Below are positions 12,460-51,903 of a DNA stretch of 64,000 nt, in pieces. The notes under the pieces were generated by a model that did no database searches, was not told the DNA's origin, and worked only from the letters and a program-made list of their open reading frames with translations. The DNA lies in contig NZ_CP028426.1 in the NCBI RefSeq assembly GCF_003010915.2, forward strand, positions 3,162,001-3,226,000, read 5' to 3'. Position numbers and translations under genes: made by a program. The DNA is from Gulosibacter molinativorax (GTDB taxonomy: Bacteria > Actinomycetota > Actinomycetes > Actinomycetales > Microbacteriaceae). Position 1 is the first letter of the stretch, and each line of letters starts with the position of its first letter.

Positions 12460-13794
12460 ATGACTCGATTTTCTCGACTGAGGCGTAGGGCTCTCTCGGT
12501 CCTCGGCCTCGGCGCGCTTGCCTCAACAACGCTCATCGGTACGGCGGCTGCCGCGAATGCGACACCGGCCCCTGCAATTCAGTTGGCAGACGACGACACC
12601 TGCATCTCCACGGCACTCGACGTGGTGTTTCTCGTGGATGCGACAGGTTCTATGGGTGGCTATATCAACGCGATGAAGAACATCGCAATCGACGCTTCAG
12701 GCACGATCACCACGGCCGGCGGGAACGTCGCCCTTGTTGATTACCTCGATGAAGGCGATCCCTACATCGCACAGACGCTCACCGACTTCACGGATGACCC
12801 CGCTGCTTTTCAGACGGCAGCGGAATCCCTGAGCCTCGGATACGGTGGCGACACCCCGGAGGCCGTGCTCTACGGTCTCAACCACTCGCTCAATGAGCTC
12901 AGCTGGACACCCGGATCTGCACGCGCGATCATCCTGATGACTGACGCTGGCTACCATGACCCGGACGTGGGGGATCCGTCGCTTACTACCAGTGGCCTGG
13001 TATCGTCAATGCAGGCCGCGAACGTCCAGCTCTTCCCGATCTTGGCGGACTCATGGATCGAGGCGGACTATGCTGACCTCGTCGCGGGAGCCGGTGGGTC
13101 GATCACGACCGTCGATGGGTCCGACGCCACGATCGAGGAAGTCATTAGCTCGGTAGTCGACGAGGTTGTGTCGCGCCCGTGGGTTGAGTTCGACGAACCG
13201 GCCTACTCGACGCCCGCAGGTGCAGACCTTACTCTCCAGACCCTGTCCGGCGCCGCTTGTTTGCCGCTCAATGTTGCTGAATGGCAATGGGATTTCCTAG
13301 ATGGTGAGCCCACCATTACCGGCGAACTCGGCGACGCAGCTGTTGTGCGCTATGCCGAGCCGGGGACGTATACGGCCAGTGTTACTTTGACCACTGTCGA
13401 TGGTCAGACCGCGACGAAGACAGTTGAAATCGAGGTTACGGAAGCAACAGTCGTGCCGCCAACGACGACACCGCCGACCACCACGGAACCTACGACTACC
13501 ACCGAACCTACGACCACGACGCCGCCCACTTCGACAGAACCGACGACTCCGCCAACTACGGAGGAACCGACGGCAACCGCGGAGCCGACTGAGACCGTCG
13601 TTCCTACGTCCAGCTCCGAGCCGACGGACACCGCCAAGCCAGTGATGAAGCCTTCGGCTGACGGCAAGGATGATGGTGGCGGACTTGCCTCGACCGGTGC
13701 GGACAACCTCTTGCCGATGCTGTTGGTCGGGCTGGCGGGAACCCTGGCCGGCGCACTGCTGCTGATCTTCCGCAAGGTCCGCGCGAACAGCTAA
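12460..13794 (+). CDS. Secreted, wall-anchored von Willebrand A / PKD protein
   Basis: 444 residues. Signal peptide at residues 1-34 (basic RLRRR, hydrophobic core, AAANA). The von Willebrand A domain begins with VFLVDATGSMG, where D60-A-T-G-S64 is a MIDAS metal site with Thr in place of the usual first Ser. A later MTDAGYH supplies the further metal-binding Asp. A PKD/Ig-like domain with Trp-x-Trp-x-F (EWQWDF) follows at about residues 265-330. Then comes a Thr/Pro-rich stalk (about 330-395) and a C-terminal sorting signal LASTG at 409, hydrophobic helix and basic RKVRANS tail. The layout is that of a surface adhesion or matrix-binding protein held by sortase. The ATG is preceded by GAAGGA. 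Confidence 0.85.
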   Translation: MTRFSRLRRRALSVLGLGALASTTLIGTAAAANATPAPAIQLADDDTCISTALDVVFLVDATGSMGGYINAMKNIAIDASGTITTAGGNVALVDYLDEGDPYIAQTLTDFTDDPAAFQTAAESLSLGYGGDTPEAVLYGLNHSLNELSWTPGSARAIILMTDAGYHDPDVGDPSLTTSGLVSSMQAANVQLFPILADSWIEADYADLVAGAGGSITTVDGSDATIEEVISSVVDEVVSRPWVEFDEPAYSTPAGADLTLQTLSGAACLPLNVAEWQWDFLDGEPTITGELGDAAVVRYAEPGTYTASVTLTTVDGQTATKTVEIEVTEATVVPPTTTPPTTTEPTTTTEPTTTTPPTSTEPTTPPTTEEPTATAEPTETVVPTSSSEPTDTAKPVMKPSADGKDDGGGLASTGADNLLPMLLVGLAGTLAGALLLIFRKVRANS

Positions 13795-13888: not shown

Positions 13889-14647
13889 TCAGTTCACAAC
13901 TCGAGTATTCGGAAACGCCACCGCGAACACGTTCCCGATGATCGCATCCTCAGGAACCGTCCTCACGCATCCATCGACAGCCTCACCCCAGCAGTGACTC
14001 AGCGAATCACTCGAGTTAGGCCGGTTGTCGCCAGCGACGACGTACTCGCCCTCGGGCACGACGAACTCGAAGCAGGGCTCGGCCTTATCGCTCGAGCAGT
14101 TTGCTGGCGCGGTACCGGGTTCAAAATTGATTCCGGTGGATGAGTTAGGGGCTCGCTCTCCGTCGACGAGGAGGGAACCGTCCTGTGCGATCTGCACAAC
14201 CTGTCCGGGCGTCGCGACGATGCGCTTCAGGTTCGTCACCGAGAGCGGCGGCCCGATGCCCGTCACTTCGCCGAATAGTCGCACGGCGTACTCGAACGGC
14301 GAATCGATCTCAAACGGTTTCGGTTCGTTCCAGTCTTCGGGCACCGTGTAGGTCACGACGTCACCTGGTTGCGGCGACGCGAACAGGTAGCTGAGACGGT
14401 TCACCAGGATGCGCTCGGTCGGATGCAGCGTGTCGAGCATCGAGGTCGAGTGCACCTCGTTGAGCTTGACGACGAAGCCCTGGATGAGCGAGACGAGGAT
14501 GAGCGCGGTTAATAAGGGCGTCAAGGGGTTGCGAAACAATCGACGGATGAATGATGGTCGACGCGGCGTGGACGAGCCACCTGGTTCGGGCGGGGCGGAG
14601 GCTTCTTCCTGCGACGCTTGTTCTGAGTGGGTCGCCACGCGGGTCAC
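13889..14647 (-). CDS. lepB: Type I signal peptidase
   Basis: Membrane serine-lysine protease that removes signal peptides; 252 residues. A single N-terminal membrane helix spans about residues 42-60. Box B is STSMLDT with catalytic Ser69, box D is KRIVATPGQ with catalytic Lys141, and box E is GDNRPNSSDS at 206-215. The first 40 residues are a charged cytoplasmic tail. The GTG start overlaps the stop of the upstream HprK-like gene (GTGA), so the two are one transcription unit. It may be the genome's general peptidase or one dedicated to the neighbouring exported proteins. Confidence 0.92.
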   Translation of the reverse strand: MTRVATHSEQASQEEASAPPEPGGSSTPRRPSFIRRLFRNPLTPLLTALILVSLIQGFVVKLNEVHSTSMLDTLHPTERILVNRLSYLFASPQPGDVVTYTVPEDWNEPKPFEIDSPFEYAVRLFGEVTGIGPPLSVTNLKRIVATPGQVVQIAQDGSLLVDGERAPNSSTGINFEPGTAPANCSSDKAEPCFEFVVPEGEYVVAGDNRPNSSDSLSHCWGEAVDGCVRTVPEDAIIGNVFAVAFPNTRVVN

Positions 14648-15744
14648 TCGTCCTTACGAACCAGTAGGTTTGCTTCGAGTAGTGCATCGACCGCTGCCGC
14701 AACTGTCTCCACCAGATTCACGCCCGGCGGGGGCACTCCTAGACTCTCAAGTAGACGTTCGGTAATCTCGACCAGGCTCGTGTCATTCGCCTCCATCCAG
14801 AGGTTTGGCCCGATCCCGTCGAGAACGTGTAGCTTACCCTCGGTAAGGATCACGAGTCGTTCGTCTATAAGCAAGGCATCGATGAACGGCCTGCGACCAA
14901 AGTTTCCAACTTGCGTCGGCGCGTGAGATTCCATGGCGACCTCAGTGATCACAGGGTGTCGAACGGGCGGCGCCTCCAGCAGCACTGTGACGAGGCCCAT
15001 CAGATCATCCGCATCGCTGTACACGAAGCGCTTTACCCCGCCGGTGGCAGCAACGACGTCTGTGAGGGCGAGAAGCGGGTGAGGGAGCTGAGCGAGGGAA
15101 CTCGTTTGTTCCGCGAGCTCACCGAGAGCTTCGAGCAAATCAACAGTGTCGACGCGGGGTTCAATTGGTTCGATTCGCCGGTCGAGGAGGACGAGCGAAG
15201 CTAATCGCAGCGGCTCCGTCGCGACTCGCATTCCCAAGTCCATTGGTGACGATAGCTTCTTAATACCCGGACGCCGACCGATCGAGAGCGGCTTCGCGAA
15301 CGGAATGACGCTTAGGTCGGTTCGGAAAGACACGGTCTCGTCGGTGACGTAACCCATGGACTGCCCCAATGCCAGAGCGGCAGTTGTCTTTCCTCGGCCG
15401 GATGGGCCGACAAGGGCGACGACGCGCCCATCAGTCGTCGCAAGTCCGGATGCGTGGAACATGAAGGCTGCCCCGACAAGTTCACGGATGCCAGCAAGCG
15501 TCAGTCGTGAGGCGAGTAGATCTGGAGCATGTTCTGCGTCACGCGCGACGATAAGTGTTGAGCCGGGTGCGTCTGTATTCGAGAGTTGGGCAATAGTGAG
15601 GTGAAACGTTTCAACTGCCGCGTCGGAAGCGGGGGATTGCAGATGACGCCATTGATCGACGATGGTTGCTTGCAGCCCTGCGTCGAGTGAATTATCGAGG
15701 CTGACGATGAAGGGCTGCCCGAGCACGCAAACTCTAAACTTCAC
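14644..15744 (-). CDS. HprK-like P-loop ATPase with PqqD-like C-terminal domain
   Basis: With the GTG at 15744 (GGAGG 6-8 bases upstream; the frame stays open to 15906 but without a better site) the protein has 366 residues and starts MKFRVCVLG. After a 95-residue N-terminal domain comes FHASG, then Walker A GPSGRGKTT at residues 113-121 and YVTDE at 132-136. This order (His-Ala-Ser-Gly, P-loop, acidic DE) matches HPr kinase-related proteins that phosphorylate peptides. The last 80 residues (RRPFIDALLIDERLVILT ... LLEANLLV) look like a PqqD-type peptide-binding wing. In lasso-peptide and other peptide-tailoring loci such kinases act beside PqqD and nucleotidyltransferase proteins, both of which lie nearby here. 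Substrate unknown. Confidence 0.7.
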   Translation of the reverse strand: MKFRVCVLGQPFIVSLDNSLDAGLQATIVDQWRHLQSPASDAAVETFHLTIAQLSNTDAPGSTLIVARDAEHAPDLLASRLTLAGIRELVGAAFMFHASGLATTDGRVVALVGPSGRGKTTAALALGQSMGYVTDETVSFRTDLSVIPFAKPLSIGRRPGIKKLSSPMDLGMRVATEPLRLASLVLLDRRIEPIEPRVDTVDLLEALGELAEQTSSLAQLPHPLLALTDVVAATGGVKRFVYSDADDLMGLVTVLLEAPPVRHPVITEVAMESHAPTQVGNFGRRPFIDALLIDERLVILTEGKLHVLDGIGPNLWMEANDTSLVEITERLLESLGVPPPGVNLVETVAAAVDALLEANLLVRKDE

Positions 15745-15959
15745 GTCGAATCCTCCGAAGTTTCCGCTTGGAACAGCAGGGTTGGGGAGTACGGCGAACA
15801 CAATTCCCGCTTTTCGACAGCTTAGTCGCATCCATCCGTTCGTTTTGATGCACCGAACTGGACTTCCGGTTGTCCACTCCGATAGTCTTTTGTCTGCACG
15901 CGTCATGAGGCGCGCTCACAAATACCCGACGATCTTGTGAAAAGAGGCTGGGAGACCAC

Positions 15960-16496
15960 ATGACGACCAACGATGACTTTAACACGCCTGAGTCCAAGGG
16001 CGTCAGTCGCCGTACCTTGATGAAGGGTGCAGCATGGGCCGTTCCCGTAATCGCGGTAGCATCAGCTTCGCCGGCGTTCGCAGCTTCGCCCGATAGCCCG
16101 GTGGATCCGTCAGCTGTACCTGGGACTTTCTGTCAGCACTCGAACGCGAAGCAATATCACGGCGTGTTTCGTTTCAACAACACCGTCGGTGTGCCCGTCA
16201 CAGTAACACTCGGCACTTGGGTCGTCCCTGGCGATAATACTCAGACCCTCAACGCCCGCTTTAGTGTCAATGGATCGTTGGAAGCTGAGCGTGACATTCC
16301 TGCGGGCACGCACGATTTCTATATCGACGGCACCGGTGCCAGTGACAATGCAAACGGAGTTTCCACCGTTTATTACGATTGGAGCTACGTAAAGGACGGC
16401 GTCACCTATTCGGGATCCAGCACCATTTCCGCTCCTGCAAGTGGAGTGAACTGCAACTCGACGCCGCCGCAGCCAACTGGTCCTGCTCCGCACTAA
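15960..16496 (+). CDS. Tat-exported small protein of unknown function
   Basis: 178 residues, ATG behind GGGAG. A clear twin-arginine signal (VSRRTLMKGAAW, Arg17-Arg18) is followed by a hydrophobic stretch and a likely cut after SPAFA (residue 41). The mature part of about 137 residues is rich in Thr, Ser, Asn, Val and Gly and looks like a beta-sandwich. Only two Cys remain, Cys58 and Cys165 near the two ends, well placed for a disulfide. The tail is Pro-rich (TPPQPTGPAPH). It is divergent from the HprK-like gene and precedes a thioredoxin-domain membrane protein, which may act on its disulfide (inference). Confidence 0.75.
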   Translation: MTTNDDFNTPESKGVSRRTLMKGAAWAVPVIAVASASPAFAASPDSPVDPSAVPGTFCQHSNAKQYHGVFRFNNTVGVPVTVTLGTWVVPGDNTQTLNARFSVNGSLEAERDIPAGTHDFYIDGTGASDNANGVSTVYYDWSYVKDGVTYSGSSTISAPASGVNCNSTPPQPTGPAPH

Positions 16497-16541
16497 CGTT
16501 GGGTCGTAAGTAGGAACCGCGTTATCTGCGACATGACGCCT

Positions 16542-16588
16542 CCTCAGGCCGGGCGCGGTAGGGACACCCTGCTGAACCCGGCCTGAGG
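16542..16588 (+). terminator. Terminator after the Tat-exported protein gene
   Basis: CCTCAGGCCGGG pairs with CCCGGCCTGAGG (12 bp) around a 23-base loop, followed by ATTTAG. A partial-stop role is possible because the next gene is in the same direction. Confidence 0.7.
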
Positions 16589-16656
16589 ATTTAGTCAGTG
16601 GTTTCGATTTTTCTTTACTCACTGCAGCATCTCAACCGCACTGGGAGCACCAGGTT

Positions 16657-17694
16657 ATGGCCACGATTCTATTGACGTTTCCGCTGATTCTTGCGGTTGC
16701 TTTCATTTGGAGTGGCGTTGGGAAACTTCGGTGCCCAGATCAATTGCAAACCTGGCGCGACCTGGGCGTACCGGACAGACTGCGCCGTGCCTGGCTACTC
16801 CGGCTACATCCGTGGGCTGAGATCGCAATCGCGTTAGGCCTCACTCTGCTCGGGGGAGTCCCTGGCGCAATCGCCGCAATGGCAGCAGTGGCGCTTATGG
16901 GATTCTATACGCTGCTAATCATCCGTGTACTACGATCAAGCGGCCCTACAGCCTGTTCGTGTTTCGGGGAACCTGCTGTTGTAACCAGACGCACGCTCAT
17001 CCGGAATATATGGCTGTCCGGGCTGTCCATTGTTAGTGTTTTTGCGATTGGGGCGACCCCCGTGCTCGGCGGCCCACTCGTCGCCATCGTCTCATCAGGT
17101 CAGGGCGGCTGGCTGATCCCTCTCATGGTCGTTGCGATCAGCACATACCTAATCGTCCGCCCCGAAGAAGTAGAGCCCGCCGACGATGTCGTTATGGGTT
17201 TGTCTTCAACATCGTCAGGGAGTTCGTTGATGGATGCTCAAGAACCGGAATTAGAGTATGTCCGAACACGCACTCCGGCAGTCCCACTGACTAAAGCCGA
17301 TGGGACAGTGATTAACTTACGCAGCCTTGCAGCTGAAAAACCGGTGCTTCTCCTGGCGGTCTCGGAAGGATGTGGAGCGTGTTTGTCCATCATCCGAAGC
17401 GTAAAAGATTACCGGGCACTTCTTCCGGAAGTCGACATACGTCTACTAATACGAGCGCTGCCAGAACATTCTACGCTCACGGATGTCGTTGCGCCGCAGA
17501 CATTGCATGACCCACATGGGTATGTCAGTGGTTCAATTTCGGACTGGCCGACACCGGCTGCCGTGCTGTTGGGGATGGACGGACTTCTCGCAGGCGGTCC
17601 AGAAATTGGCAACATCGCGATCCCTGCGTTCATTAGTGACATCTATGAAAACCTTCACGGTGTCCGCCCACCGACAGCCACACCAACTCGTTGA
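16657..17694 (+). CDS. MauE/DoxX-type membrane protein fused to a thioredoxin-like domain
   Basis: 345 residues. Residues 1-165 hold four to five membrane helices with the MauE pattern: an early GVGKL segment, HPWAEIAIALGL, and a Cys pair in the loop (Cys100, Cys102 of ACSCFGEP). From residue 200 a thioredoxin-like domain follows with active-site Cys239-Gly-Ala-Cys242. A cis-Pro-like TPAAVLL segment also appears. MauE proteins are linked to disulfide formation in exported proteins, so a membrane-tethered thiol-redox role is likely. Base composition is lower in GC than in the ribosomal genes. The nucleotidyltransferase gene follows closely. Confidence 0.75.
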   Translation: MATILLTFPLILAVAFIWSGVGKLRCPDQLQTWRDLGVPDRLRRAWLLRLHPWAEIAIALGLTLLGGVPGAIAAMAAVALMGFYTLLIIRVLRSSGPTACSCFGEPAVVTRRTLIRNIWLSGLSIVSVFAIGATPVLGGPLVAIVSSGQGGWLIPLMVVAISTYLIVRPEEVEPADDVVMGLSSTSSGSSLMDAQEPELEYVRTRTPAVPLTKADGTVINLRSLAAEKPVLLLAVSEGCGACLSIIRSVKDYRALLPEVDIRLLIRALPEHSTLTDVVAPQTLHDPHGYVSGSISDWPTPAAVLLGMDGLLAGGPEIGNIAIPAFISDIYENLHGVRPPTATPTR

Positions 17695-17701
17695 ACGACT
17701 C

Positions 17702-18622
17702 ATGTCCGGTCCGGAGTCCAAAGCGCTTAGTATCACCAATGAGGAATCGGTTCCGTTGGCGACGGCACTCGCGCAATGGGTCGCCGAAAATGCTCACATT
17801 CGGCTCTTGATTCTTAAGGGTCCCCTGGCGCACGAGTCGGGACTTCGCGCTAGAAAAACCTCGACTGATGTTGACGTATTGGTCCTGCCGAGTGACGTTG
17901 ACAGACTTATCTCTGCGCTCGCCGAACATGGATGGTCGCCTCGACCATGGCCTCAATTCCCGACCCTCCTCCCGCCACATTCGCGGGCGCTGCTTCACCC
18001 TCAGTGGGGGATCGACATCGATGTGCACTTCAATTGGCCGGGATTTCTCGCTCCGGCATCCAATGTGTTCGACAGGCTTTGGGAACGACGACGGGAGATG
18101 ACTCTCGCGGGGACTCCGGTTCAGACGACCGGGCGTGCTGATACCGCACTCATCCTCGCACTCCATTTGCTGCGTGAAGCACCCCAGAAGTGGAACAGAG
18201 GCCGAACGATCCCCGCCTACGATGACCTGATTAAGCGAGTGGTGGCGGACGATGGCTTGTCGGCGGATATCCGTGCGGCGGCGGCCGACACTGGCTCGGA
18301 ACAGACGGCCCGGCCATTCCTAGAAGCAGTGGGATTCGAGATCCCGGAGACCGAGCCAGACGACGCGCTTCGCGCCTGGCGGTTGCACGGTGCATCCGCA
18401 CATCCAGTTTCGGGATGGTTGAACGCGTTTGCAGACGCTTCGATCCGTGAACGTCCAAGTCTTGTTTGGCGTGCCGTGTTCCCATCCGCCGCCGATCTTC
18501 GGGCTATAGACCCGGCCGGCGGGGACGGTGCTCGCGGTACGTTTTATCGCTGGTGGCGCCGACTAAAGCGGGGGATTCGCACGGCCCCGGCCGCGATTCG
18601 TACGCTACGCAAAGAGAAGTGA
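17702..18622 (+). CDS. Nucleotidyltransferase of the NTP_transf_5 type
   Basis: 306 residues from the ATG at 17702, seven bases after the previous stop. An upstream in-frame ATG at 17645 would overlap it and cannot be excluded. The N-terminal segment LLILKGPLAHE, then RKTSTDVDVLV with the Asp-x-Asp metal pair at residues 56 and 58, is the polymerase-beta-like nucleotidyltransferase core of this family. It is followed by the HFNWPGF region. Members occur in capsule loci and with HprK-like kinases in peptide-tailoring loci. Here it is followed 4 bases later by a PqqD gene. Reaction and acceptor are unknown. Confidence 0.7.
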   Translation: MSGPESKALSITNEESVPLATALAQWVAENAHIRLLILKGPLAHESGLRARKTSTDVDVLVLPSDVDRLISALAEHGWSPRPWPQFPTLLPPHSRALLHPQWGIDIDVHFNWPGFLAPASNVFDRLWERRREMTLAGTPVQTTGRADTALILALHLLREAPQKWNRGRTIPAYDDLIKRVVADDGLSADIRAAAADTGSEQTARPFLEAVGFEIPETEPDDALRAWRLHGASAHPVSGWLNAFADASIRERPSLVWRAVFPSAADLRAIDPAGGDGARGTFYRWWRRLKRGIRTAPAAIRTLRKEK

Positions 18623-18626
18623 CCGT

Positions 18627-18950
18627 TTGACTCTCGGCTATCCTATTGCAGTGGACAACAGGGTGGATTACGGCACACGTTGGTCCAGAGCGGATCACGT
18701 CGCGTTCGTGGATCGTGAAACCTATGTCGCACTCCTGCCTCTTGCCATTACGCCAGCAGGTGCGCCACGAATGCTAGAGGGCTCCGCAGCAGTGATCTGG
18801 CGAACGCTCGGAGCGACTCCTCGGACTGAAGAAGACATCATCGCGGAGGTAGCAAAAGCGTTCGCACAATCTCCTTTGGCACTCGGCAGCGACGTGCGAG
18901 CATTCTTGCGGGATCTTGACGCGCAGGGTCTTGCGAAAAGGACAAACTGA
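18627..18950 (+). CDS. PqqD-family peptide-binding protein
   Basis: 107 residues from TTG at 18627, which has AGAGAAG upstream. A GTG at 18651 (MDNRVDYG) is an alternative. The segments MLEGSAAVIWRTLG, EDIIAEVAKAF and VRAFLRDLDAQGL have the winged-helix pattern of PqqD domains, which bind leader peptides for modifying enzymes. The neighbours (nucleotidyltransferase upstream, HprK-like/PqqD protein at 14.6-15.7 kb) suggest a peptide or protein substrate. The glycosyltransferase gene starts one base after its stop. Confidence 0.75.
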   Translation: MTLGYPIAVDNRVDYGTRWSRADHVAFVDRETYVALLPLAITPAGAPRMLEGSAAVIWRTLGATPRTEEDIIAEVAKAFAQSPLALGSDVRAFLRDLDAQGLAKRTN

Positions 18951-21253: not shown

Positions 21254-21311
21254 CGAAGTTGGTCTATCTAAGTGGTCGCGTCCGGCCCCATGCATCGAGG
21301 GAGTGGCCGAA

Positions 21312-22766
21312 TTGACAGTCGCCGATTTCGTTCTGCTATTGCGCAGGCACTGGAAATTTCTGTTGACCATTGTGCTTCTCGGGGGCATCGCCGGGGTCGG
21401 ATACTCGGCGCTGCAAACACCCGTGTACACAGCGACATCGTCAGGGTTCATTGAGACCTCCAGCGAAACAGGCATCGTCGCGCAGGACGAACCTGAACGC
21501 ATCGAGGCCTACCTCACGCTAATCACAAGTAATGCTGTGGCAGAGAAAATCGCGTCGAATCCCGACCTCAATGTCCCTGCGGAAGATGTACGGGGAAGCA
21601 TCAGCGCGAGCCTGGTTGGAACGAGCGCGCTGATATCTGTGACCGCGAATTCCGATTCTCCGCAGGGAGCAGAAGCGCTCGCCAACGGTGCTCTGGTAGC
21701 ACTTGGTGAAGTCATTGATGAGATTGAAAAGGGATCTGCGAGCGGAACCTCGAGTGTCCTCAGCGTGACCCCATTCGAAAACGCCGTCGCGCCCAGCACC
21801 CCTTCGTCACCCAACTGGGGGCAGAACATCCTAATCGGTCTTGGCGCCGGACTCGTGCTCGGTCTGGCCCTGATGATGCTGCGACAGCTGCTTGACATCA
21901 AGGTGCGTAGCGCGGAGGACGTTACGGAGGCCATGGATGGGGCCGGGCTGCTTGCGCGAATCCCGAAGATGGCGAAGGCCAAGAACTCGAAGGGTCTCCC
22001 GAAACTCGACACCCTCGGCGCCGAGTCGTTCCGGCACCTTCGCACAAGTCTGCGTTTCTCAAGTGTCGACGAAGAATTACGTAGCGTCGTTGTCACCAGC
22101 TCGAACCAGGGCGAGGGGAAAACCACAGTTGCAGTGTCTCTCGCGCGAATGATGGCCGAGTCAGGCGTTCGGACACTCATCATCGACGCCGATCTGCGTC
22201 GACCAGCCGTTGCCCGATCGCTTGGTATCGATGGGTCGGTCGGGTTGAGCAGCGTACTGAGCGGTCAGGTCGCCTTGAACGATGCACTTCGTGCGACAAA
22301 ACAAGACAACCTATTCGTTTTGCCGGCGGGCCCTATTCCACCGAATCCGTCGGAGATCATTGGGTCCGCGAGCATGCGAGACCTGGTTGATTCACTCAGC
22401 AAAGAGGTGTTCGTGATTGTTGATGCGCCACCCGTCCTCCCCGTTACGGACGCTGCAATCGTGAGTGGCATCGTCGACGGCGTCGTATTCGTGGTGAAGG
22501 CAGGCAGCACGGCGAAACCAGAGCTGCGCCAAGCCCGTCTGCTGCTGAACCGCGCGCAGGCTCGTCTGCTCGGGGTCGTGCTCAACGGCGTCACCAAGAC
22601 CGACGGAGATGGCGGCTACTACTACAGCAAGAAAAACCGCGGTTACTACATGAACGCGGAACAAGCATCCGTTGGCGAGCCAGAAGTAAAGAGGACGCGC
22701 ACGAGTGAGACCGCGAGCCGGCCGAAGCAGGCCGCCGAGACGCGCAGCGGCCGTCGGGGTAAGTGA
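21312..22766 (+). CDS. Wzz/Wzc-type polysaccharide co-polymerase and tyrosine kinase
   Basis: 484 residues with start TTG at 21312, which has GGGAG at proper distance. A GTG at 21303 has no free ribosome site. N-terminal Wzz part with helix at about residues 17-33 and second helix at 173-190. The cytoplasmic kinase has Walker A NQGEGKTT (265-272), Walker A' LIIDADLRRP and Walker B VFVIVDAPPV. A Tyr cluster (GGYYYSKKNRGYYM) near the C-terminus is the usual autophosphorylation site. It is one fused polypeptide, unlike the split CpsC/CpsD of Firmicutes. It would control chain length and export, opposed by the phosphatase encoded next. Confidence 0.9.
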   Translation: MTVADFVLLLRRHWKFLLTIVLLGGIAGVGYSALQTPVYTATSSGFIETSSETGIVAQDEPERIEAYLTLITSNAVAEKIASNPDLNVPAEDVRGSISASLVGTSALISVTANSDSPQGAEALANGALVALGEVIDEIEKGSASGTSSVLSVTPFENAVAPSTPSSPNWGQNILIGLGAGLVLGLALMMLRQLLDIKVRSAEDVTEAMDGAGLLARIPKMAKAKNSKGLPKLDTLGAESFRHLRTSLRFSSVDEELRSVVVTSSNQGEGKTTVAVSLARMMAESGVRTLIIDADLRRPAVARSLGIDGSVGLSSVLSGQVALNDALRATKQDNLFVLPAGPIPPNPSEIIGSASMRDLVDSLSKEVFVIVDAPPVLPVTDAAIVSGIVDGVVFVVKAGSTAKPELRQARLLLNRAQARLLGVVLNGVTKTDGDGGYYYSKKNRGYYMNAEQASVGEPEVKRTRTSETASRPKQAAETRSGRRGK

Positions 22767-23299
22767 GCACGGAAGTGCCTCGCCGCGTTCTATTCGTGTG
22801 TCACGCGAACATTGTGCGCTCCGCTGCGGCGGAGCTACTTTCGAAGGCGCGAAATGACCTTTCGGGTGAATGGTCATTTGAGAGCGCGGGAGTGCAAGCG
22901 CTCGTCGGGCACCATGTGGACACGGACATGGCTGCCGCCCTCGCGGCGTATGGCATCGACGCCAGCGCGAAGCCGGGTGCTCGGCAACTGTCGGGGCAGA
23001 TGATCGAATCCGCTGACCTCATCCTGACGTTCGAGCGGTGGCACCGAAAGTGGGTTATCCAGCAAGACCCGTCGGCGGCTCGCCGTACCCTCACGATTCG
23101 ACGCGCGGAACGGCTCTTGGCAGGGAGACCACGACGCGTTGAGGTGTTGAGCCTTTTTGCGAACGACGATGCTGCGTATACATCAGCTGATGACTTCGCT
23201 GACCCCGTGGGGATGGGCCGTGCTGCCGCGGCCGACGCCGCGGCAGAGATCGCGCGGCTCCTCAACGGGATTCTTCCCGCAATTGGGGCAACGAGATGA
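22763..23299 (+). CDS. Low-molecular-weight protein tyrosine phosphatase (Wzb-like)
   Basis: 178 residues, GTG overlapping the kinase stop (GTGA). The active-site loop is Cys13-HANIV-Arg19-Ser, a C-x5-R-S loop, and DFADPVGM near residue 148 supplies the general acid Asp-Pro. The loop departs from the common C-x-G-N-x-C-R-S form, having His-Ala in place of x-Gly and Val for the second Cys. Its place right behind the tyrosine kinase gene indicates that it resets the kinase and so controls polymer assembly. Confidence 0.85.
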   Translation: MSTEVPRRVLFVCHANIVRSAAAELLSKARNDLSGEWSFESAGVQALVGHHVDTDMAAALAAYGIDASAKPGARQLSGQMIESADLILTFERWHRKWVIQQDPSAARRTLTIRRAERLLAGRPRRVEVLSLFANDDAAYTSADDFADPVGMGRAAAADAAAEIARLLNGILPAIGATR

Positions 23300-25250: not shown

Positions 25251-26311
25251 ACCATCCCGAAGACCTCGACGCTTGGCGTCGCTGGCAGCGCAGCCAGAAC
25301 CGGTTGCGAGCGCTGCGGGCTGCGTTTCGCAAGCCGGCACCGGCCGACCTCGTGCTGCTGCGCGAGAGCGATAAACCGACCGCCCTGTTCGCCCTTGACG
25401 CGACGACGCCGAGCGCGCTCGCGGCAGTGCTTGAGCCGGCGTCCCATCTCCCCGCCAGCTCGTACGCCATTCTCGTGCCAAGGTCTGTCGCGATCGAGAT
25501 ATTGCAGCGACAGCACCTGCCAGTCACTGACCGTGCGACGGACGGTGAGGAATGGACCATGCAGGCCGTTGAAGAAACCGCTGGGGCGCCCGATGCCCTC
25601 GCAGAGGTGCGAGTCGTTGTCTCGGCGGGGCATTTCCTAGCGGCCGGCGCCGTGGCCCAGCGCTGGGCAACCACGCTCGGCGCGCCATACTGCGTCGTGC
25701 AGCACGGACTCCTCACACCCTTCGCGCCACCGCTTCCGCGTGAGGCGTGGCTGTTCGCATTCAGCGAGGCCGACGGCGAATTTTGGCGCTCCGGCCGGAC
25801 CGACATCCACGTCGAGTCGGTCGGTAGCCAGATGCTCTGGAACGCCGCGTCCGCACCGACTCCGACCGAGGTGGTGGCGGATGCGCGCCCCGTGTTTCTT
25901 GGCCAGCTTCACGGCGCCGAGCTACCGAGGCGCGTCTCCGCTCGGACTGCAGCCACGTTCTGTCGCGAAACAGGAGCAACCTACCGCCCGCATCCGGCTG
26001 AGGTGGATCGCCTCTCCCGTTGGCAGCACCAACGCTGGCGGCGGCAAGGCATCGACGTGGAAGATACCGGCAAACCTCTCGTCTCGGGCCGACCGATTGT
26101 TGCTATTTTTTCGACGGGAATTCTCGAAGCTGCAGCCGCCGGAATGCCTGCCTGGGTCACCTGCGCGAACCCGCCCGAGTGGGTCGAGGAGTTCTGGCAC
26201 CGCTATGGCCTCTCACAGTGGGGGAATGACCCGACACCGCCGCCCGTGCAGCCGGAAGTCTCACCGAGCCAGCAGATCGCCAATCGCCTGCAAGAAATGG
26301 GAGTGAAATGA
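25241..26311 (+). CDS. Possible GT-B transferase for a nonulosonic acid (capsule biosynthesis)
   Basis: 356 residues. Start ATG at 25241 with AGGAGG about 11 bases upstream, overlapping the CgeB-like gene by 10 bases. It is not a classical GT2 or GT4 protein. It shows YCVVQHGLLTPFAP, FLGQLHGAELP, and TYRPHPAEVDRL near residues 247-258, followed by AIFSTGILEAAAAG. A His-Pro motif followed by a Ser/Thr-Gly-x-x-E stretch is typical of bacterial sialyltransferase and polysialyltransferase-type GT-B enzymes. The CMP-sugar synthetase gene follows with a 4-base overlap. The assignment is inference from motif and context. Confidence 0.5.
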   Translation: MGLNHPEDLDAWRRWQRSQNRLRALRAAFRKPAPADLVLLRESDKPTALFALDATTPSALAAVLEPASHLPASSYAILVPRSVAIEILQRQHLPVTDRATDGEEWTMQAVEETAGAPDALAEVRVVVSAGHFLAAGAVAQRWATTLGAPYCVVQHGLLTPFAPPLPREAWLFAFSEADGEFWRSGRTDIHVESVGSQMLWNAASAPTPTEVVADARPVFLGQLHGAELPRRVSARTAATFCRETGATYRPHPAEVDRLSRWQHQRWRRQGIDVEDTGKPLVSGRPIVAIFSTGILEAAAAGMPAWVTCANPPEWVEEFWHRYGLSQWGNDPTPPPVQPEVSPSQQIANRLQEMGVK

Positions 26312-27021
26312 CCCCGCGCATCCTCTGTGTCATCCCCGTCCGTGGCGGGTCGAAAGGCGTGCCGCGGAAGAACGAGCGACTGGTCGCGGGGAAGCCCCTC
26401 GTCGTGTGGACGATCGAGCAGGCGCTCGCGGCAGACTACGACCTCGATGTCCTGGTCTCGACCGACGACGAACAGCTTGCCGCGATCGCGCGCGAGGCCG
26501 GGGCAGATGTGCCGTTCCTGCGCCCCGCGGAACTCGCGCAGGATGCGACGCAGACCGAGCCCGTCATTCAGCACGCCATCGAGTACCGCACGACTACCGG
26601 TTTGCGCCCAGACGCAGTGATGCTGTTGCAGGCAACCTCTCCCGTGCGCTTTGAGCGCACAATTGACCGAGCTGTGGAACAATTCATTAGTGCAGACATT
26701 GATAGTCTGGTCGGTGTGGTGCCGCAGACTCCGTTCTTCTGGCATCCGCCCGCTTCGGCGGGATTGAGCGCGACTGCCGAGTACAACCCGGCGGCGCGCC
26801 CACTGCGCCAAGACCTTCAGCCCCAGGACTATTTCTATAAGGAGACCGGTTCGCTGTACCTCACACGAACCGAGATTTACGAGCGTGAGCGAAACCGCAT
26901 TGGCGGGAAAGTCGGCCTTTTCGTGATGGACGAAGCCGAAGGCATTGATATCGACACGTTCGTGGATTTGAGAATCGCGGAGCAAGTCCTCGCTGACCTG
27001 CAAGGCACACCGAATGGATAA
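26308..27021 (+). CDS. neuA: CMP-nonulosonic acid (acylneuraminate) cytidylyltransferase
   Basis: Activates a sialic-acid-like sugar with CTP; 237 residues, the normal catalytic-domain length. The N-terminal CTP loop is IPVRGGSKGVPRKN at residues 9-22. LLQATSPVR near 105-113, RQDLQPQDYFYKETGSLY near 172-189 and the metal-binding DEAEGIDIDT near 210-219 follow. ATG overlaps the previous stop. It lies 3 bases before the NeuB fusion gene. The exact sugar (neuraminic, legionaminic or pseudaminic type) cannot be told. Confidence 0.85.
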   Translation: MTPRILCVIPVRGGSKGVPRKNERLVAGKPLVVWTIEQALAADYDLDVLVSTDDEQLAAIAREAGADVPFLRPAELAQDATQTEPVIQHAIEYRTTTGLRPDAVMLLQATSPVRFERTIDRAVEQFISADIDSLVGVVPQTPFFWHPPASAGLSATAEYNPAARPLRQDLQPQDYFYKETGSLYLTRTEIYERERNRIGGKVGLFVMDEAEGIDIDTFVDLRIAEQVLADLQGTPNG

Positions 27022-27024
27022 TGC

Positions 27025-29268
27025 ATGATCATCGACCGTCAGCTCGCGCCGTATATCGTGTTCGCGGAGGACCCAGTCCTCTCTGCGCTGAGCAAGATCA
27101 ACGCGAACCGGCAGCGCATCGTCTTCTGTGTGGATGCGCACGGCATTCTGCGGGGCTCGTTCTCTGACGGCGACTTCCGACGCTGGATCGTCGAAAACCC
27201 GACCGGGTCGCTCGACACGTCCGTCGGCGAGATCAGCAACACCCAGACGCAGACCGCGCCCGCTACGGCTCGACCCGCCGAGATTCTGCCGCTCTTTCGC
27301 GAGGGCGTGAGCCACATCCCGCTCGTGGATGAACGTGGTCACCTCATGGCCGTCGCGATCGACGCGAGTGACACGCTTCGCATCGGTTCGCACGAAATTG
27401 GGCCCGGGCATCCTACGTTCGTGATCGCCGAGGTTGGCAACAACCACAACGGCTCGATTGACCTCGCGAAGCGGCTCGTCGACCTCGCGGTCGACGCAGG
27501 CGCGGATGCGGTCAAGTTTCAGTTGCGGGACATGGACTCGCTCTACCGGCAGTCAGGCGGTGCGACTGCCGGGGAGGACCTCGGGGCGCAGTACACGCTC
27601 GATCTGCTGCGGAAGTTCTCGCTGCCCGCGGAGTCGCTCTTCGAGGTGTTCGACCATGCGAAGGACGCGGGTATCGACGTCATGTGCACGCCGTGGGATT
27701 CCGCGAGCGTGCAGGCGCTGGTCGACTACGGCATCCCGGGCCTGAAGATTGCCTCCGCCGACCTCACGAATCACGAGCTGCTCGACGACGCGGCCTCGCG
27801 CGGATTGCCGATGCTGTTGAGCACCGGTATGTCTCGCGAGTCGGAGATCATCGAGACCGTGGAACTGCTGCGTCGCCGCGGTGCGGGCTACGCGTTGCTG
27901 CACTGCCAGTCGACCTATCCGGCGCCGTACAAGGACCTCAACCTCGCCTACATGGATCGGCTCGCCGAGCTTGGCGAATGCGTCGTCGGATACTCGGGCC
28001 ACGAGCGCGGCTGGCACGTGCCGGTCGCGGCCGTCGCCCGCGGCGCATCCATCATCGAAAAGCACTTCACCGTCGACCGCGGGATGGAAGGCAACGACCA
28101 CACGGTGTCGCTGCTGCCCGAGGAGTTCAAGGCGATGGTTTCGGAGATCCGCGACATCGAGTCGTCGATCGGCACGAACCAGGAACGCGTGGTCTCCACC
28201 GGTGAGGCGATGAACCGCATCAACCTCGCGAAGTCACTCGTGGCCGCGCGGCCGGTCGCGGCTGGTGACGAGCTCGTGGCCGAGGACGTACAGGTGCGAA
28301 GCCCGGGGCGCGGACTGCAGCCCAACAAGCTGCCGCTCCTGCTCGGTCGCACGATCCGGCGCGACATGGTCGAGGGTGACTTCTTCTTCGAAGGCGACCT
28401 TCGGAATGCATCGCCGACGGGCCGCGACTTCACGTTCCGCCGGCCGTGGGGCCTCCCGGTTCGCTACCACGATCACGCGGAGCTACTTGCGCAGTCGAAC
28501 CCTGACTTTCTTGAGTTCCACTTCTCGTACAAAGACCTCGACGTCGACATGGACGAGTTCTTCGCCGAGCCGCTCGATATCGGTTTCACGACGCACCTGC
28601 CCGACCTCTTCGCGGGTGACTTTCTCGTCGACCTCGCCTCGGCAGACGACGAGATCTGGGTGCGCTCGATTCGGGAAGTGCAGCGGACGATTCAGGTGAC
28701 GCGCGACCTGCGCCGCTGGTTCCCAAATGAGACCGAGCCGATCATGGTTGTGACGATGGGCGGGTTTACGAACGACCGGCACATCCCCGCATCCGAGCGA
28801 AGAGCAAAGTATGACCGAATTGCCGAAGCACTAAAGCGTCTCGACACGGACGGCGTGCGGATCGCGGCGCAGACACTGCCGCCGTTCCCTTGGCTCATGG
28901 GCGGGCAGCAGTTCCACAACCTCTTCCTTGACCCGCGCGACACCGCGGAGTTCGCGGAACGGACCGGCACCGCGCTGTGCTTCGACGTCTCGCACACGAA
29001 GCTCGCGTCGACGTTCCTCGGCGTGCCGTTTTCGGAGGCCCTCGAGCTGCTCGCGCCCCACACGATTCACTGGCACATCGTGGATGCGACTGGCGTCGAC
29101 GGCGAGGGCGTGCAGGTTGGCGAGGGCGACATTGACTGGCCGCCATTCGGCGCGGCGATCGATCGGCTTTCACCAGGAACGCCGTTTATCCCGGAAATTT
29201 GGCAGGGTCACATCAACCACGGCGAGGGCTTCTGGACGGCGCTTGACCGGCTGGAGCAGTGGCTTTGA
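27025..29268 (+). CDS. neuB: Multi-domain nonulosonate synthase: CBS pair + NeuB + SAF + TIM barrel
   Basis: 747 residues, about twice the usual NeuB. Residues 8-115 form a CBS pair (HGILRGSFSDGDFRRW). Residues 128-375 are the NeuB barrel that condenses phosphoenolpyruvate with an N-acyl sugar: TFVIAEVGNNHNGS, DAVKFQ, KIASADLTN, LLSTGMS, GYSGHE and EKHFTVDR. Residues 402-458 are the SAF antifreeze-like lid (AKSLVAARPVAAGD). Residues 475-747 resemble a xylose-isomerase-type TIM barrel (CFDVSHTKL, HWHIVDATG, EIWQGHINHGEGF), which may act on a sugar phosphate or sugar intermediate. No NeuC epimerase gene is in the window. The CBS pair hints at nucleotide control. Domain calls are by eye. Confidence 0.82.
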   Translation: MIIDRQLAPYIVFAEDPVLSALSKINANRQRIVFCVDAHGILRGSFSDGDFRRWIVENPTGSLDTSVGEISNTQTQTAPATARPAEILPLFREGVSHIPLVDERGHLMAVAIDASDTLRIGSHEIGPGHPTFVIAEVGNNHNGSIDLAKRLVDLAVDAGADAVKFQLRDMDSLYRQSGGATAGEDLGAQYTLDLLRKFSLPAESLFEVFDHAKDAGIDVMCTPWDSASVQALVDYGIPGLKIASADLTNHELLDDAASRGLPMLLSTGMSRESEIIETVELLRRRGAGYALLHCQSTYPAPYKDLNLAYMDRLAELGECVVGYSGHERGWHVPVAAVARGASIIEKHFTVDRGMEGNDHTVSLLPEEFKAMVSEIRDIESSIGTNQERVVSTGEAMNRINLAKSLVAARPVAAGDELVAEDVQVRSPGRGLQPNKLPLLLGRTIRRDMVEGDFFFEGDLRNASPTGRDFTFRRPWGLPVRYHDHAELLAQSNPDFLEFHFSYKDLDVDMDEFFAEPLDIGFTTHLPDLFAGDFLVDLASADDEIWVRSIREVQRTIQVTRDLRRWFPNETEPIMVVTMGGFTNDRHIPASERRAKYDRIAEALKRLDTDGVRIAAQTLPPFPWLMGGQQFHNLFLDPRDTAEFAERTGTALCFDVSHTKLASTFLGVPFSEALELLAPHTIHWHIVDATGVDGEGVQVGEGDIDWPPFGAAIDRLSPGTPFIPEIWQGHINHGEGFWTALDRLEQWL

Positions 29269-30317: not shown

Positions 30318-31255
30318 CCGATTCGCCAAAGGCAAGTATTGTCGTACCCTCGCGCGGTGGCGCGGAACGATTGCCGCACCTGTTCGAGGCGCTTCGCTCG
30401 CAGACCGAGTCGAGTTGGGAAGCCATCGTCGTCATTGATGGAGACATCGACAACTCGGCATTGGTGGTCGAGGAAGCTGCCGCGGATCTACCGGTGCGGT
30501 CTATCGTATTTCCGGAAAACCGTGGCCGTTCGGCTGCGCTAAATGCAGGGTTTGCATCAGCTCGCGGTGACATCTTGATTCGGTGCGATGACGACCTTCG
30601 ACCCTCGCCCGACTATGTTGCGGCACATGTGGAGCGTCACATCGGAGGCGAGTTCGGGGTGGTCGGGCTTTACCGAAATACATATCCGCCAACGCCGTAC
30701 GCGCGCGCGTACGGGTTCGATCGCGACGAGCGGTTTCGCAAAGATGCGTATGCCGCTTCGGAAGAGCAATGGTGGCGGTTCTGGGCGGGAAATGTTTCGG
30801 TCACCCGAACAGGTTGGCAACGCGTTGGCGAATACGACAGATCCTTTCGCGCATATGGTTGGGAGGATGTCGATTGGGGTTATCGCGCCAAACAGGCAGG
30901 CCTGGATGTCGTACTCGCACCCGAACTTGAAACACCGCACCACATTGCAGCAACCACGACCGCGATAAGGGTGATTCGGGCGTTTCATTCGGGGGCAGCT
31001 CGTCGAAAATTCGAAGCTAAGCACGGCGTCGGTGCGCTCCCACCAGCGGACGGAGGCACAGGTATTTGGGGTGCACTGGTGAGGAATACGGCGCGATTGC
31101 GCAACTTGACCGGCCTTACTAGGTCAGCGCGAACTATTGACCGATTCGCCGATAAGCTTCCTCAATATATCGCCGAGAAAGCAATTTCTCTGCTCGTTGA
31201 ATCGGCTTCATTATCGGGATATCGACGCCCAGATAACGTGCGAAATGATGTCTGA
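30314..31255 (+). CDS. Glycosyltransferase family 2 protein
   Basis: 313 residues, ATG overlapping the previous stop. GT-A core: ASIVVPSRGGAERLPHLFEA near residues 7-24, NRGRSAALNAGF near 68-79, and IRCDDDLRPSPDY with the metal-binding Asp triplet near 88-100. WAGNVSVTR and YGWEDVDWGYRAK near 175-190 form the acceptor and base region. Codon use becomes more AT-rich from this gene rightwards. The next gene's start overlaps its end. Confidence 0.85.
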   Translation: MTDSPKASIVVPSRGGAERLPHLFEALRSQTESSWEAIVVIDGDIDNSALVVEEAAADLPVRSIVFPENRGRSAALNAGFASARGDILIRCDDDLRPSPDYVAAHVERHIGGEFGVVGLYRNTYPPTPYARAYGFDRDERFRKDAYAASEEQWWRFWAGNVSVTRTGWQRVGEYDRSFRAYGWEDVDWGYRAKQAGLDVVLAPELETPHHIAATTTAIRVIRAFHSGAARRKFEAKHGVGALPPADGGTGIWGALVRNTARLRNLTGLTRSARTIDRFADKLPQYIAEKAISLLVESASLSGYRRPDNVRNDV

Positions 31256-43623: not shown

Positions 43624-45093
43624 TCAGTACGCGCCCTTCGGCGAAATCATGGTCCGCACCGTGCGCAGCACGATCAGCAGGTCTTCGATCAGCGACCAGT
43701 TCTCGACGTAATAGAGGTCGAGGCGGATGCTGTCCTCCCACGAGAGATCGCTACGGCCACTGACCTGCCACAGGCCGGTGATGCCCGGCTTCACGAGTAG
43801 CCGGCGATGCACCCAGGCCTCGTAGTTCTCGACCTCGCTCTGCAGCGGCGGCCGCGGGCCAACGATCGACATGTCGCCACGCAGGACGTTGTAGAACTGC
43901 GGCAGCTCGTCGAGGCTGAACTTGCGCAGCACCTTCCCGACGCGGGTGATGCGGGGGTCTGACTTGTGTTTGAAGAGGTGCCCGTTGCGCGTCTCGTCGT
44001 TCATGAGCTCGTCGCGCCGCAACTCCGCATCCGCCGTCATCGAGCGGAACTTGTACATCGTGAAGGGCTTGCCGCCGATGCCCACTCGCTCTTGCTTGAA
44101 GATGACGGGGCCGGGGCTATCGAGGCGGATGAGCGTCGTGATGACGAGTGCGAGCGGGCTAATCAGGATGAGGGCCAGGGCCGAGCCGACGATGTCAAAG
44201 ACGCGCTTCGTGTAGTACTTGCCGCCCTCGAACTCGGGCACCTCGAGGTGCACGAGCGGCATTCCCGAGACCGGGCGGGAGTGGATGCGCGCCCCGGCGA
44301 TTCCCGTCAGGCCGATCGACGCGATGATGTCGACATCGCGGTTCTCGAGCTGCCAACCGATTTCGCGGAGATGTTCGGGAGTCAGCGCATCCGCGCTCGT
44401 GAGGATGAGCGTGTCGATGTGGTAGGCATCCACCACGTGCATCAGGCCCTCGTAGCCCGAGAGCACGGGGACGCCCGGCGCCAGCTCCTGGTTCGTGCCG
44501 TGCTCGGTGACGGCGCCGACGACGTCGAAGCCTGCGTACGAGGTGCGGGCGATTTCTTCGGCCACAGTAGCGCTCTTCGCTCGATCGCCAACGATCAGCG
44601 TCCGGTAAATGTGGTGGTGACGCTCGCGCTGGTGGTGCAGGTACTTCCTCCAGAGCCATCGGCCCAAGAGTAGGAGGAACAGACCGAGGGGGAGCGCGAT
44701 GAGGACGTAGCCGCGGCCGACCTGCGAGCGCAGCGCGAACGCGATGATCGCCAAGAGCCCGAACACCCCGAACGTCGCCGAGATGACGTTGCGATACTCG
44801 GTTGCGCCGATGCCGACTACCTTCGGCGAGCGGCTCCCCGACATCGCAAGCGTGATGAGCCAAGCGGCGATGAGCGCCACGGAGATCGCGGTGTAGCTGA
44901 CTTCGAAGCCTTTGTTATCAGCGACCGCCGGGTTGACCTCGAGCGAAGACCGGTCAACGCCGAAACGAAGCAATTGCGCGACAATTACGGCGAATACAAC
45001 GATAATGGTGTCCGTGATTGCAAGCCGGCGTTCGTAGCGCTTTTCCCACAGCTTGGCCGATTCCGTGATTGCTTTCGGCGCCATTACTACCAT
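43624..45093 (-). CDS. Undecaprenyl-phosphate sugar-1-phosphate transferase (priming enzyme)
   Basis: 489 residues, the full WbaP/CpsE architecture. N-terminal membrane helices at about 25-42, 68-85, 108-125 and 130-150 precede a CoA-binding-like middle domain (TLIVGDRAKSATVAEEI). A single helix follows (VFDIVGSALALILISPLALV, about 300-325), then the catalytic domain: KQERVGIGGKPFTMYKFRSM, SLDELPQFYNVLRGDMS, VGPRPPL, KPGITGLWQVSGR and LDLYYVENWSL. It moves a sugar-1-phosphate from UDP-sugar to the lipid carrier and so starts repeat-unit synthesis. ATG at 45093 or 45084; neither has a clear ribosome site. Confidence 0.92.
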   Translation of the reverse strand: MVVMAPKAITESAKLWEKRYERRLAITDTIIVVFAVIVAQLLRFGVDRSSLEVNPAVADNKGFEVSYTAISVALIAAWLITLAMSGSRSPKVVGIGATEYRNVISATFGVFGLLAIIAFALRSQVGRGYVLIALPLGLFLLLLGRWLWRKYLHHQRERHHHIYRTLIVGDRAKSATVAEEIARTSYAGFDVVGAVTEHGTNQELAPGVPVLSGYEGLMHVVDAYHIDTLILTSADALTPEHLREIGWQLENRDVDIIASIGLTGIAGARIHSRPVSGMPLVHLEVPEFEGGKYYTKRVFDIVGSALALILISPLALVITTLIRLDSPGPVIFKQERVGIGGKPFTMYKFRSMTADAELRRDELMNDETRNGHLFKHKSDPRITRVGKVLRKFSLDELPQFYNVLRGDMSIVGPRPPLQSEVENYEAWVHRRLLVKPGITGLWQVSGRSDLSWEDSIRLDLYYVENWSLIEDLLIVLRTVRTMISPKGAY

Positions 45094-51594: not shown

Positions 51595-51903
51595 ATGGCG
51601 GGACAAAAAATCCGCATCCGACTGAAGTCGTATGACCACGAGGTCATCGACAACTCCGCGCGCAAGATTGTAGACACCGTAACGCGCGCTGGTGCATCCG
51701 TCATCGGGCCAGTCCCGCTGCCGACGGAGAAGAACGTGGTAACGGTTATCCGTTCGCCCCACAAGTACAAGGACAGCCGCGAGCAGTTTGAGAAGCGCAC
51801 CCACAAGCGTCTGATCGACATCGTCGACCCCACGCCGAAGGCTGTCGACTCGCTTATGCGCCTCGACCTGCCGGCCGACGTCAACATCGAGATCAAGCTC
51901 TAG
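51595..51903 (+). CDS. rpsJ: 30S ribosomal protein S10 (uS10)
   Basis: 102 residues, the standard length. It begins [20 protein letters not shown] and has [20 protein letters not shown] near residues 39-58. First gene of the S10 operon, ATG behind GAGGAG. It also serves as the NusE transcription factor in antitermination. Confidence 0.99.

Follow-up and report, generated by a model that had tools for sequence, protein, structure and literature searches.

HPr-rel-A systems, as named in NCBIfam, are located in polysaccharide/exosortase loci. Enzymes with comparable domains also tailor peptides: the pseudomycoidin kinase PsmK phosphorylates a Ser, to which PsmN, annotated as a nucleotidyltransferase, adds one or two hexoses (PMC9266682, PMC8498205). 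The sequence W/Y/LxxP/L/I is reported as the binding target of RREs (recognition elements for ribosomally synthesized and post-translationally modified peptides, or RiPPs) of the PqqD, FusE, McjB and StsC groups (PMC12710340). Here we describe a five-gene locus in a 64,000-nucleotide stretch of DNA (“the window”, positions 3162001-3226000 of a 3.5-Mb genome, placed in the family Microbacteriaceae on the basis of the named genomes with the closest loci). The genes encode a HprK/PEPCK-fold kinase, a protein exported by twin-arginine translocation (Tat), a MauE-thioredoxin, an NTP_transf_5 nucleotidyltransferase and a PqqD protein, and they stand at the start of a polysaccharide cluster (Table 1). 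All five had been listed in an original prediction of a protein- or peptide-tailoring locus, and all are backed by Pfam or profile comparison, save the Tat signal and the thioredoxin part, which were read from motifs. On sequence comparison, what is conserved is the signal peptide rather than the Tat protein of the window: the signals that we collected sit on 93 families of mature protein.

The signal, here termed AAW, has the pattern RR-KGAAWxxPVIA-P-AxA/S, where the slash marks the cleavage site. The mature parts of Tat proteins in kinase loci vary, but their signal is shared, with the consensus xxGxSRRTVxKGAAWSVPVIAxAVAxPAAAASx, and 28 such signals were used to build the search profile. In the window protein the twin arginine, the hydrophobic core and AxA are all present; the Pfam Tat model PF10518 reaches only 10.6 versus 22.7 bits. 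Its signal is the single AAW signal in the window genome at E≤0.01, and AAW copies elsewhere number up to at least 26 per genome. The protein has exactly two Cys (C58 and C165), both in the mature part, which is modeled with modest confidence as an all-beta domain (mean predicted local distance difference test score (pLDDT) 69.7 from a five-sequence alignment; 66-93 over residues 41-160 in 10-residue blocks). WxxP is present in 182 of 183 AAW-Tat proteins, W and P being partly imposed by the seed pattern. Neither the second Pro (kept in 71/71) nor the Ser (68/71) was demanded by that pattern. Cleavage sites could be parsed for 178 of the 183 signals (5 were unparsable), and a Ser at the site (A.A/S or A.A/AS) was found in 157 of these, versus 14 of 148 in a rough signal-peptide control. 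Because the seed pattern required W and P, the WxxP test was repeated motif-blind on Tat-like open reading frames (ORFs) grouped by distance from the kinase. WxxP occurred in 46/76 at ≤600 bp, 40/82 at 600-3000 bp and 47/173 beyond 3 kb (near versus far, P=7e-7); the 30 near-kinase ORFs without it were mostly spurious or non-Tat ORFs by eye. A rough rule for finding further clients is RR, about six residues, then AW-x2-P-x8-P-x3-A/S. In one kinase-positive genome with no AAW hit (G214), a Tat protein overlapping the kinase stretch (locus L064) has MxxP instead of WxxP.

The proteins that carry the signal have little else in common. Single-linkage BLASTP (E≤1e-5) sorted the 183 distinct AAW proteins of the fetched loci into 93 mature families, of which 62 have a single member; the median mature length is 149 amino acids (range 84-511). 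In Pfam scans of ten clients, the only clear match was to a thioester adhesin domain (E=1.5e-17). Another of the ten scored against WYL_2 (1.8e-8) and DUF2850 (6.2e-5) with no single stretch passing, and the remainder gave nothing or sub-threshold matches. No C-terminal membrane or LPXTG-type anchors were seen in the 183 clients by simple tests; a transmembrane test by hydropathy (mean 1.9 over 19 residues) marked a segment in only four, always internal. By this measure the clients lack the C-terminal helix of PEP-CTERM proteins (the PEP motif and EpsH were not searched for).

Signal and kinase occur in the same genomes. In a family set of 298 Microbacteriaceae genomes, the AAW signal was found in 34, the kinase profile in 30 and both in 29 (Fisher 5e-34); counted by genus (85), the figures were 17, 15 and 15 shared (P=8e-15). 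In an order set of 347 genomes they were 74, 70 and 64 (P=1e-51), and by genus (105) 26, 25 and 23 shared (P=8e-18). A neighborhood survey had been suggested with the original prediction, and a lack of co-occurrence named as evidence against it; the genes instead co-occur widely. The agreement extends within genera: the window genome is the sole positive of 7 in its genus (g1), for both signal and kinase, and in another genus (g85) six genomes are positive for both and at least eight others, among the genomes listed, negative for both.

The genes are also linked. After removal of 5 genomes without a listed AAW position from the 64 order-level double positives, an AAW gene lay ≤5 kb from the kinase in 32 of 59 genomes (≤2 kb in 25 of them), where 0.5 would be expected under uniform placement. 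Counted over 108 distinct kinases, an AAW gene was found at ≤500 bp for 35, at ≤2 kb for 48 and anywhere in the stretch for 69; in four loci of family f10 (L214-L217) the kinase is followed by 5-7 AAW genes. The five-gene set is thus more than chance, since co-occurrence and linkage recur across many genera, and comparative genomics makes the pairing of signal and kinase almost certain. The same results bear out a protein-tailoring locus with the Tat protein as its likely client. Were AAW merely a lineage-specific Tat signal, with spreading polysaccharide clusters happening to carry both genes, strong clustering in certain genera and frequent sharing of one locus by kinase and client genes would be expected, as is seen. 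Such hitch-hiking is nevertheless improbable, given the unlinked AAW copies on proteins of many families, the concordant presence and absence within g1 and g85, and the conservation of a second Pro and a Ser that the search did not demand.

Kinase neighborhoods in relatives were taken from kinase hits at E≤6.6e-20 only; 109 of 299 genomes gave hits at E≤1e-3, the weaker of which resemble P-loop noise. Of 79 named loci fetched (span about 10 kb, shorter at contig ends), 78 were kept; in L149 no kinase ORF passed the threshold. The genera include Microbacterium, Agromyces, Herbiconiux, Pseudoclavibacter, Leucobacter, Arthrobacter, Pseudarthrobacter, Brevibacterium and Tessaracoccus. The commonest neighbor within about 10 kb of the kinase is Wzc (67/78), followed by NTP_transf_5 (56), signal peptidase I (39), a separate PqqD (35), a low-molecular-weight phosphatase (35), a WbaP-like transferase (22) and MauE-thioredoxin (20). 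In L165 (genome G244), for example, the order is kinase, MauE-thioredoxin, two-Cys Tat protein, AraC-like protein (by eye), signal peptidase and Wzc; in the overlapping locus L043 the phosphatase, PqqD and NTP_transf_5 genes adjoin Wzc. One kinase locus (L128) lies on a contig filed as Stenotrophomonas maltophilia. Its kinase and AAW-Tat protein look actinobacterial, and the assignment is probably contamination.

The kinase ORF as called spans 14644-15906 on the minus strand; homologues start at about codon 55, and the likely start is therefore the downstream GTG given in Table 1. H97, GPSGRGKTT (residues 113-121) and D135/E136 are invariant in 34 aligned sequences, and the protein has the PEPCK/HprK-type P-loop kinase fold. 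Its C-terminus aligned with stand-alone PqqDs at an HHalign probability of 95.1% (E=3.4e-8), versus 0.1% for the N-terminal rest of the protein as a control. This supports the HprK-like enzyme with a PqqD domain that had been predicted. Pfam PqqD does not match the window kinase at E≤1 and matches 6 of the 34 family members, the best E being 0.0012 (weak by Pfam alone). In eight loci from two other families of bacteria (L214-L221, six mapped domain-wise and two by ORF layout), kinase and PqqD are separate, adjoining genes. A Pfam scan of the window kinase gave no HPr_kinase_C match at E≤1, and this family is absent from the 25 of 41 Pfam families listed for the 34 members. A PF27840 label on several homologues was not reproduced when some of them were scanned with a local Pfam. 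No HPr kinase chains are among the best 50 matches listed in either of two fold searches, which does not exclude them. Among the best 60 of 256 sequence matches in the PDB, which are mainly ABC and other P-loop ATPases aligned over the P-loop, there is likewise no HPr kinase.

These comparisons make the ATPase a kinase of the PEPCK/HprK fold that carries a PqqD domain (a peptide-binding RRE), rather than the plain HPr kinase that the original prediction had named as evidence against itself. A plain HPr kinase/phosphatase controlling carbon metabolism would have the HprK-like order of H, P-loop and acidic pair that is seen here, and the PEPCK-like fold group does include HPr kinase (PMC1079889). 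We rejected it as scarcely credible because HPr_kinase_C is unmatched in the window protein at E≤1 and a PqqD domain is fused or adjoining; the enzyme is also linked to Tat proteins and polysaccharide genes, and is sporadic (30/298 genomes).

NTP_transf_5 was found at E≤1e-4 in 35 of 40 genomes positive for kinase and signal versus 4 of 40 negative genomes (32 versus 4 over the curated cut-off). Three of the four matches in negative genomes are stronger and near full-length, and probably belong to another subfamily. PsmN is, we assume, a member of the NTP_transf_5 family. The stand-alone PqqD is the sole PF05402 hit at E≤0.001 in the window genome. In the window and in L214-L219 the nucleotidyltransferase gene adjoins a PqqD gene of its own, which suggests a separate reader for each of the two enzymes. 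The WxxP of the AAW signal fits the W/Y/LxxP/L/I motif of PqqD-class RREs (PMC12710340).

We therefore favor, with moderate confidence, a reading in which the Tat signal is a RiPP-like leader, read by PqqD/RRE domains so that the kinase and the nucleotidyltransferase can tailor the exported client. Clients would form a many-to-one pair with the machine through their shared export signal, with its near-invariant WxxP in the hydrophobic core. In the cytoplasm, PqqD domains (one fused to or encoded beside the kinase, a second beside NTP_transf_5) would bind this signal as they would a RiPP leader. The kinase would then phosphorylate a Ser. The best candidate is the cleavage-site Ser, proposed as acceptor because it is the conserved residue that remains on the mature protein. 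The nucleotidyltransferase might extend the Ser phosphate with a sugar or nucleotide, after which the modified client would be exported by Tat, cleaved by signal peptidase and end in or on the exopolysaccharide. More tentatively, and as something that we regard as doubtful, the Ser could serve as a lipobox-like anchor: loaded before export with a phosphate-linked sugar, it would leave an N-terminal phosphoglycan tying the client covalently to the exopolysaccharide of the same locus. Such anchoring would explain both clients with no LPXTG or membrane anchors by simple tests and the use of one route for two dozen or more proteins in a genome.

AAW could alternatively be a true sorting signal with another reader, either the Tat machinery or a signal peptidase I dedicated to it. 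The kinase and the nucleotidyltransferase would then act, with the PqqDs, on the polysaccharide or its enzymes, and the genes would be kept together because the clients are matrix proteins. The conservation of Ser and AxA does fall at the signal peptidase site, and signal peptidase I and Wzc are frequent within 10 kb of the kinase (39 and 67 of the 78 loci). But only half of the named loci have a signal peptidase I near the kinase, AAW genes often directly adjoin the kinase, and the signal contains the motif reported to be bound by PqqD-group RREs (PMC12710340). We consider this explanation unlikely. Far less probable still is a RiPP or lasso-type pathway with a small unannotated peptide as substrate and the Tat protein incidental. 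A HprK-like kinase and an annotated nucleotidyltransferase do tailor a phospho-lasso peptide (PMC9266682), but the recurring partner here is a Tat protein of the lengths given above, and the lasso B2 protease (Transglut_core3, PF13471) has 0 matches at E≤0.001 in the window genome. A lasso or RiPP locus was rejected because of this missing B2 family; small conserved ORFs were not searched for specifically. The kinship with phosphorylated lasso peptides that the original prediction drew is for the same reason kept as a functional analogy only.

Several points weigh against the leader reading. Conservation of RR (or KR), W and P is partly a product of the seed pattern, which demanded them; the cleavage-site Ser is missing in 21 of 178 parsed signals; and no other conserved residue was seen in the mature parts, no systematic test having been made. 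The fetched stretch contains no AAW gene for 41 of 118 kinase ORFs. Of the 40 positive genomes, 5 have no NTP_transf_5; note also that 12 of the 40 positives are from other families, whereas the 40 negatives are Microbacteriaceae without exception. On the window proteins, the nearest NCBIfam system models score far below their cut-offs (HprK_rel_A 14.0 and HprK_rel_B 15.7 bits, each versus 200; PqqD_rel_X 19.7 versus 35). The P values ignore relatedness, the genomes are not phylogenetically independent and the two sets share some genomes. The searches scored only 5-6 kinase candidates and 22-26 signal candidates in each genome and may have missed some. Discordant genomes in the family set are G085, G147, G165, G199 and G248 (signal only) and G214 (kinase only), and in the order set 10 are signal-only and 6 kinase-only. 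Finally, G298 gave a kinase hit (2.2e-26) in one search and is not listed in the kinase search of the family set.

The MauE-thioredoxin had been counted as a member of the set. Its link to Cys-bearing clients stands, but it is found in a subset of loci only and is not required. No thioredoxin family matched the window protein in a Pfam scan at E≤1, and a PDB sequence search with it returned no matches; its CGAC part is presumably thioredoxin-like. CxxC is present in 41 of 42 rows of the family (not dereplicated), the exception being a 159-residue ORF with the MauE domain only. Within the family set, MauE-thioredoxin was scored as present in 14 of 298 genomes, 13 of which are kinase-positive; the 14th (G234) has the MauE domain only. 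Two or more Cys are found in 24 of the 26 clients ≤1.3 kb from MauE, versus 61 of 157 elsewhere. In one client family, each of 24 rows (not dereplicated) has two mature Cys and no more, at -116/-118 and -4. Such patterns fit disulfides. In the family of the window Tat protein, the relatives P0122 and P0123 have an extra Cys pair, and the window protein lacks Cys at both positions.

For a test of MauE against client Cys content, 26 loci were given and 25 genomes searched (L124 was left out). As expected, the 15 genomes with Cys-free clients had no MauE. It was also absent, contrary to expectation, from eight Agromyces genomes (one an incomplete-looking metagenome-assembled genome) with clients of 2-8 Cys. 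It was present in only two (L081 and L108), which were chosen because their stretch already showed MauE. The link between MauE and Cys-bearing clients is only partial because of the eight Agromyces genomes, which also weaken any role for MauE-thioredoxin as general oxidant of all clients. From its distribution, it is an accessory in a subset of loci, tied to Cys-bearing clients and not required for them. It probably handles disulfide chemistry, and would do so for clients that bear cysteines; crude hydropathy places its thioredoxin part on the positively charged side of the membrane, possibly in the cytoplasm. Locus L149 has two MauE-thioredoxin genes, and the nearby AAW-Tat proteins have 0, 0 and 2 Cys.

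The tuf gene and the rpsJ ribosomal operon usually adjoin in actinobacteria. In the window the rpoB/rpoC-rpsL-rpsG-fusA-tuf block runs to 12178 and the rpsJ operon starts at 51595 (genes named by eye), with about 39 kb (12200-51500) between them. By Pfam and NCBIfam scans 18955-45084 holds mostly polysaccharide genes, with others beyond about 45.1 kb. The cluster includes Wzc, a Wzy_C-like protein just below the cut-off, glycosyltransferases, NeuB, a CTP transferase, an ABC transporter and a WbaP-like transferase. A 747-residue ORF at 26308-29268 has CBS (weak), NeuB, SAF and AP_endonuc_2 matches and adjoins a CTP_transf_3 gene, which suggests a nonulosonic-acid sugar in an actinobacterial polysaccharide. 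A 1232-residue ORF at 31137-34835 is similar to GT4 glycosyltransferases and is possibly a fusion of several glycosyltransferases. Upstream, at 12460-13794, a secreted protein with vWA and PKD domains, LASTG and a membrane tail adjoins the signal peptidase gene.

Table 1. Features of the locus and of the adjoining polysaccharide cluster (window coordinates)
Feature	Position	Strand	Evidence or remark
Signal peptidase I	13889..14647	-	PF10502 E=1.2e-26; TIGR02227 E=8.4e-28
HprK/PEPCK-fold kinase fused to C-terminal PqqD (RRE)	14644..15744	-	likely GTG start 15744, 366 residues
PqqD-like segment of kinase, about residues 293-360	14665..14868	-	HMM (hidden Markov model) domain match 1.5e-14, from an iterated HMM that may be partly circular; HHalign
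Putative Tat-exported client: AAW-type signal and predicted all-beta mature domain with C58, C165	15960..16496	+	
AAW-Tat signal	15996..16091	+	profile A2, E=3.8e-16
WxxP motif W26-P29, proposed PqqD-bound leader motif	16035..16046	+	
MauE membrane domain and thioredoxin-like CGAC domain	16657..17694	+	PF07291 E=2.1e-19
NTP_transf_5 nucleotidyltransferase	17648..18622	+	PF14907 E=2.3e-12, 47.5 bits vs cut-off 31.2
Stand-alone PqqD (RRE), directly downstream of nucleotidyltransferase	18627..18950	+	PF05402 E=1.7e-9, 38.3 bits vs 23.4
Wzc/Wzz-type polysaccharide co-polymerase tyrosine kinase (BY-kinase)	21303..22766	+	TIGR01007 E=3.1e-54
Low-molecular-weight tyrosine phosphatase	22763..23299	+	named by eye
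WbaP-like polyprenyl-phosphate sugar-phosphate transferase, polysaccharide cluster	43624..45084	-	PF02397 E=6.9e-71

The observation is real and larger than the original prediction reported. Its tailoring locus, PqqD kinase and Tat client have held; it had missed the polysaccharide cluster, the conserved signal and the accessory status of MauE. If the leader reading is correct, this is a new system of protein sorting or modification, in which an export signal doubles as leader for tailoring enzymes on many unrelated exported proteins. The reading gives the HprK-like/PqqD/NTP_transf_5 enzymes of polysaccharide loci a candidate class of substrate, and would join RiPP-type recognition with polysaccharide biology. 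Among the matches listed in a search of Creative Commons-licensed literature, we found no described client for these enzymes and no report apparently describing the AAW signal/kinase pairing.

Several known systems are similar in part. Like the phospho-lasso enzymes (PadeK/ThcoK, PsmK with PsmN), this locus has a HprK-like kinase, an annotated nucleotidyltransferase and a Ser acceptor, here a putative one (PMC9266682, PMC8498205); unlike them, it would serve Tat-exported clients with a median of 149 mature residues, many per genome, whose leader is the export signal. The NCBIfam HPr-rel-A system (TIGR04352 HprK_rel_A, TIGR04353 PqqD_rel_X) likewise joins a HprK-related kinase to a PqqD partner, but scores far below the HprK_rel_A and PqqD_rel_X cut-offs place the window proteins outside it. 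RREs paired with Sec-exported precursors (DUF2063/DUF2282) also match an RRE-type domain to an export signal; there, one precursor family and no specific recognition motif are reported, whereas here WxxP lies inside a Tat signal (PMC12710340). In PEP-CTERM/EpsH (exosortase) sorting, one short signal is borne by many diverse proteins and its presence in genomes matches that of a machine in an exopolysaccharide locus (PMC1569441). The present signal differs in being N-terminal and Tat-type rather than C-terminal, with a kinase, a nucleotidyltransferase and RREs in place of EpsH, and in being actinobacterial. The bacterial lipobox is an export signal with a conserved +1 residue. AAW signals share such a residue, but it is Ser rather than Cys, the route is Tat, and the enzymes that would act on it are cytoplasmic instead of a lipid transferase.

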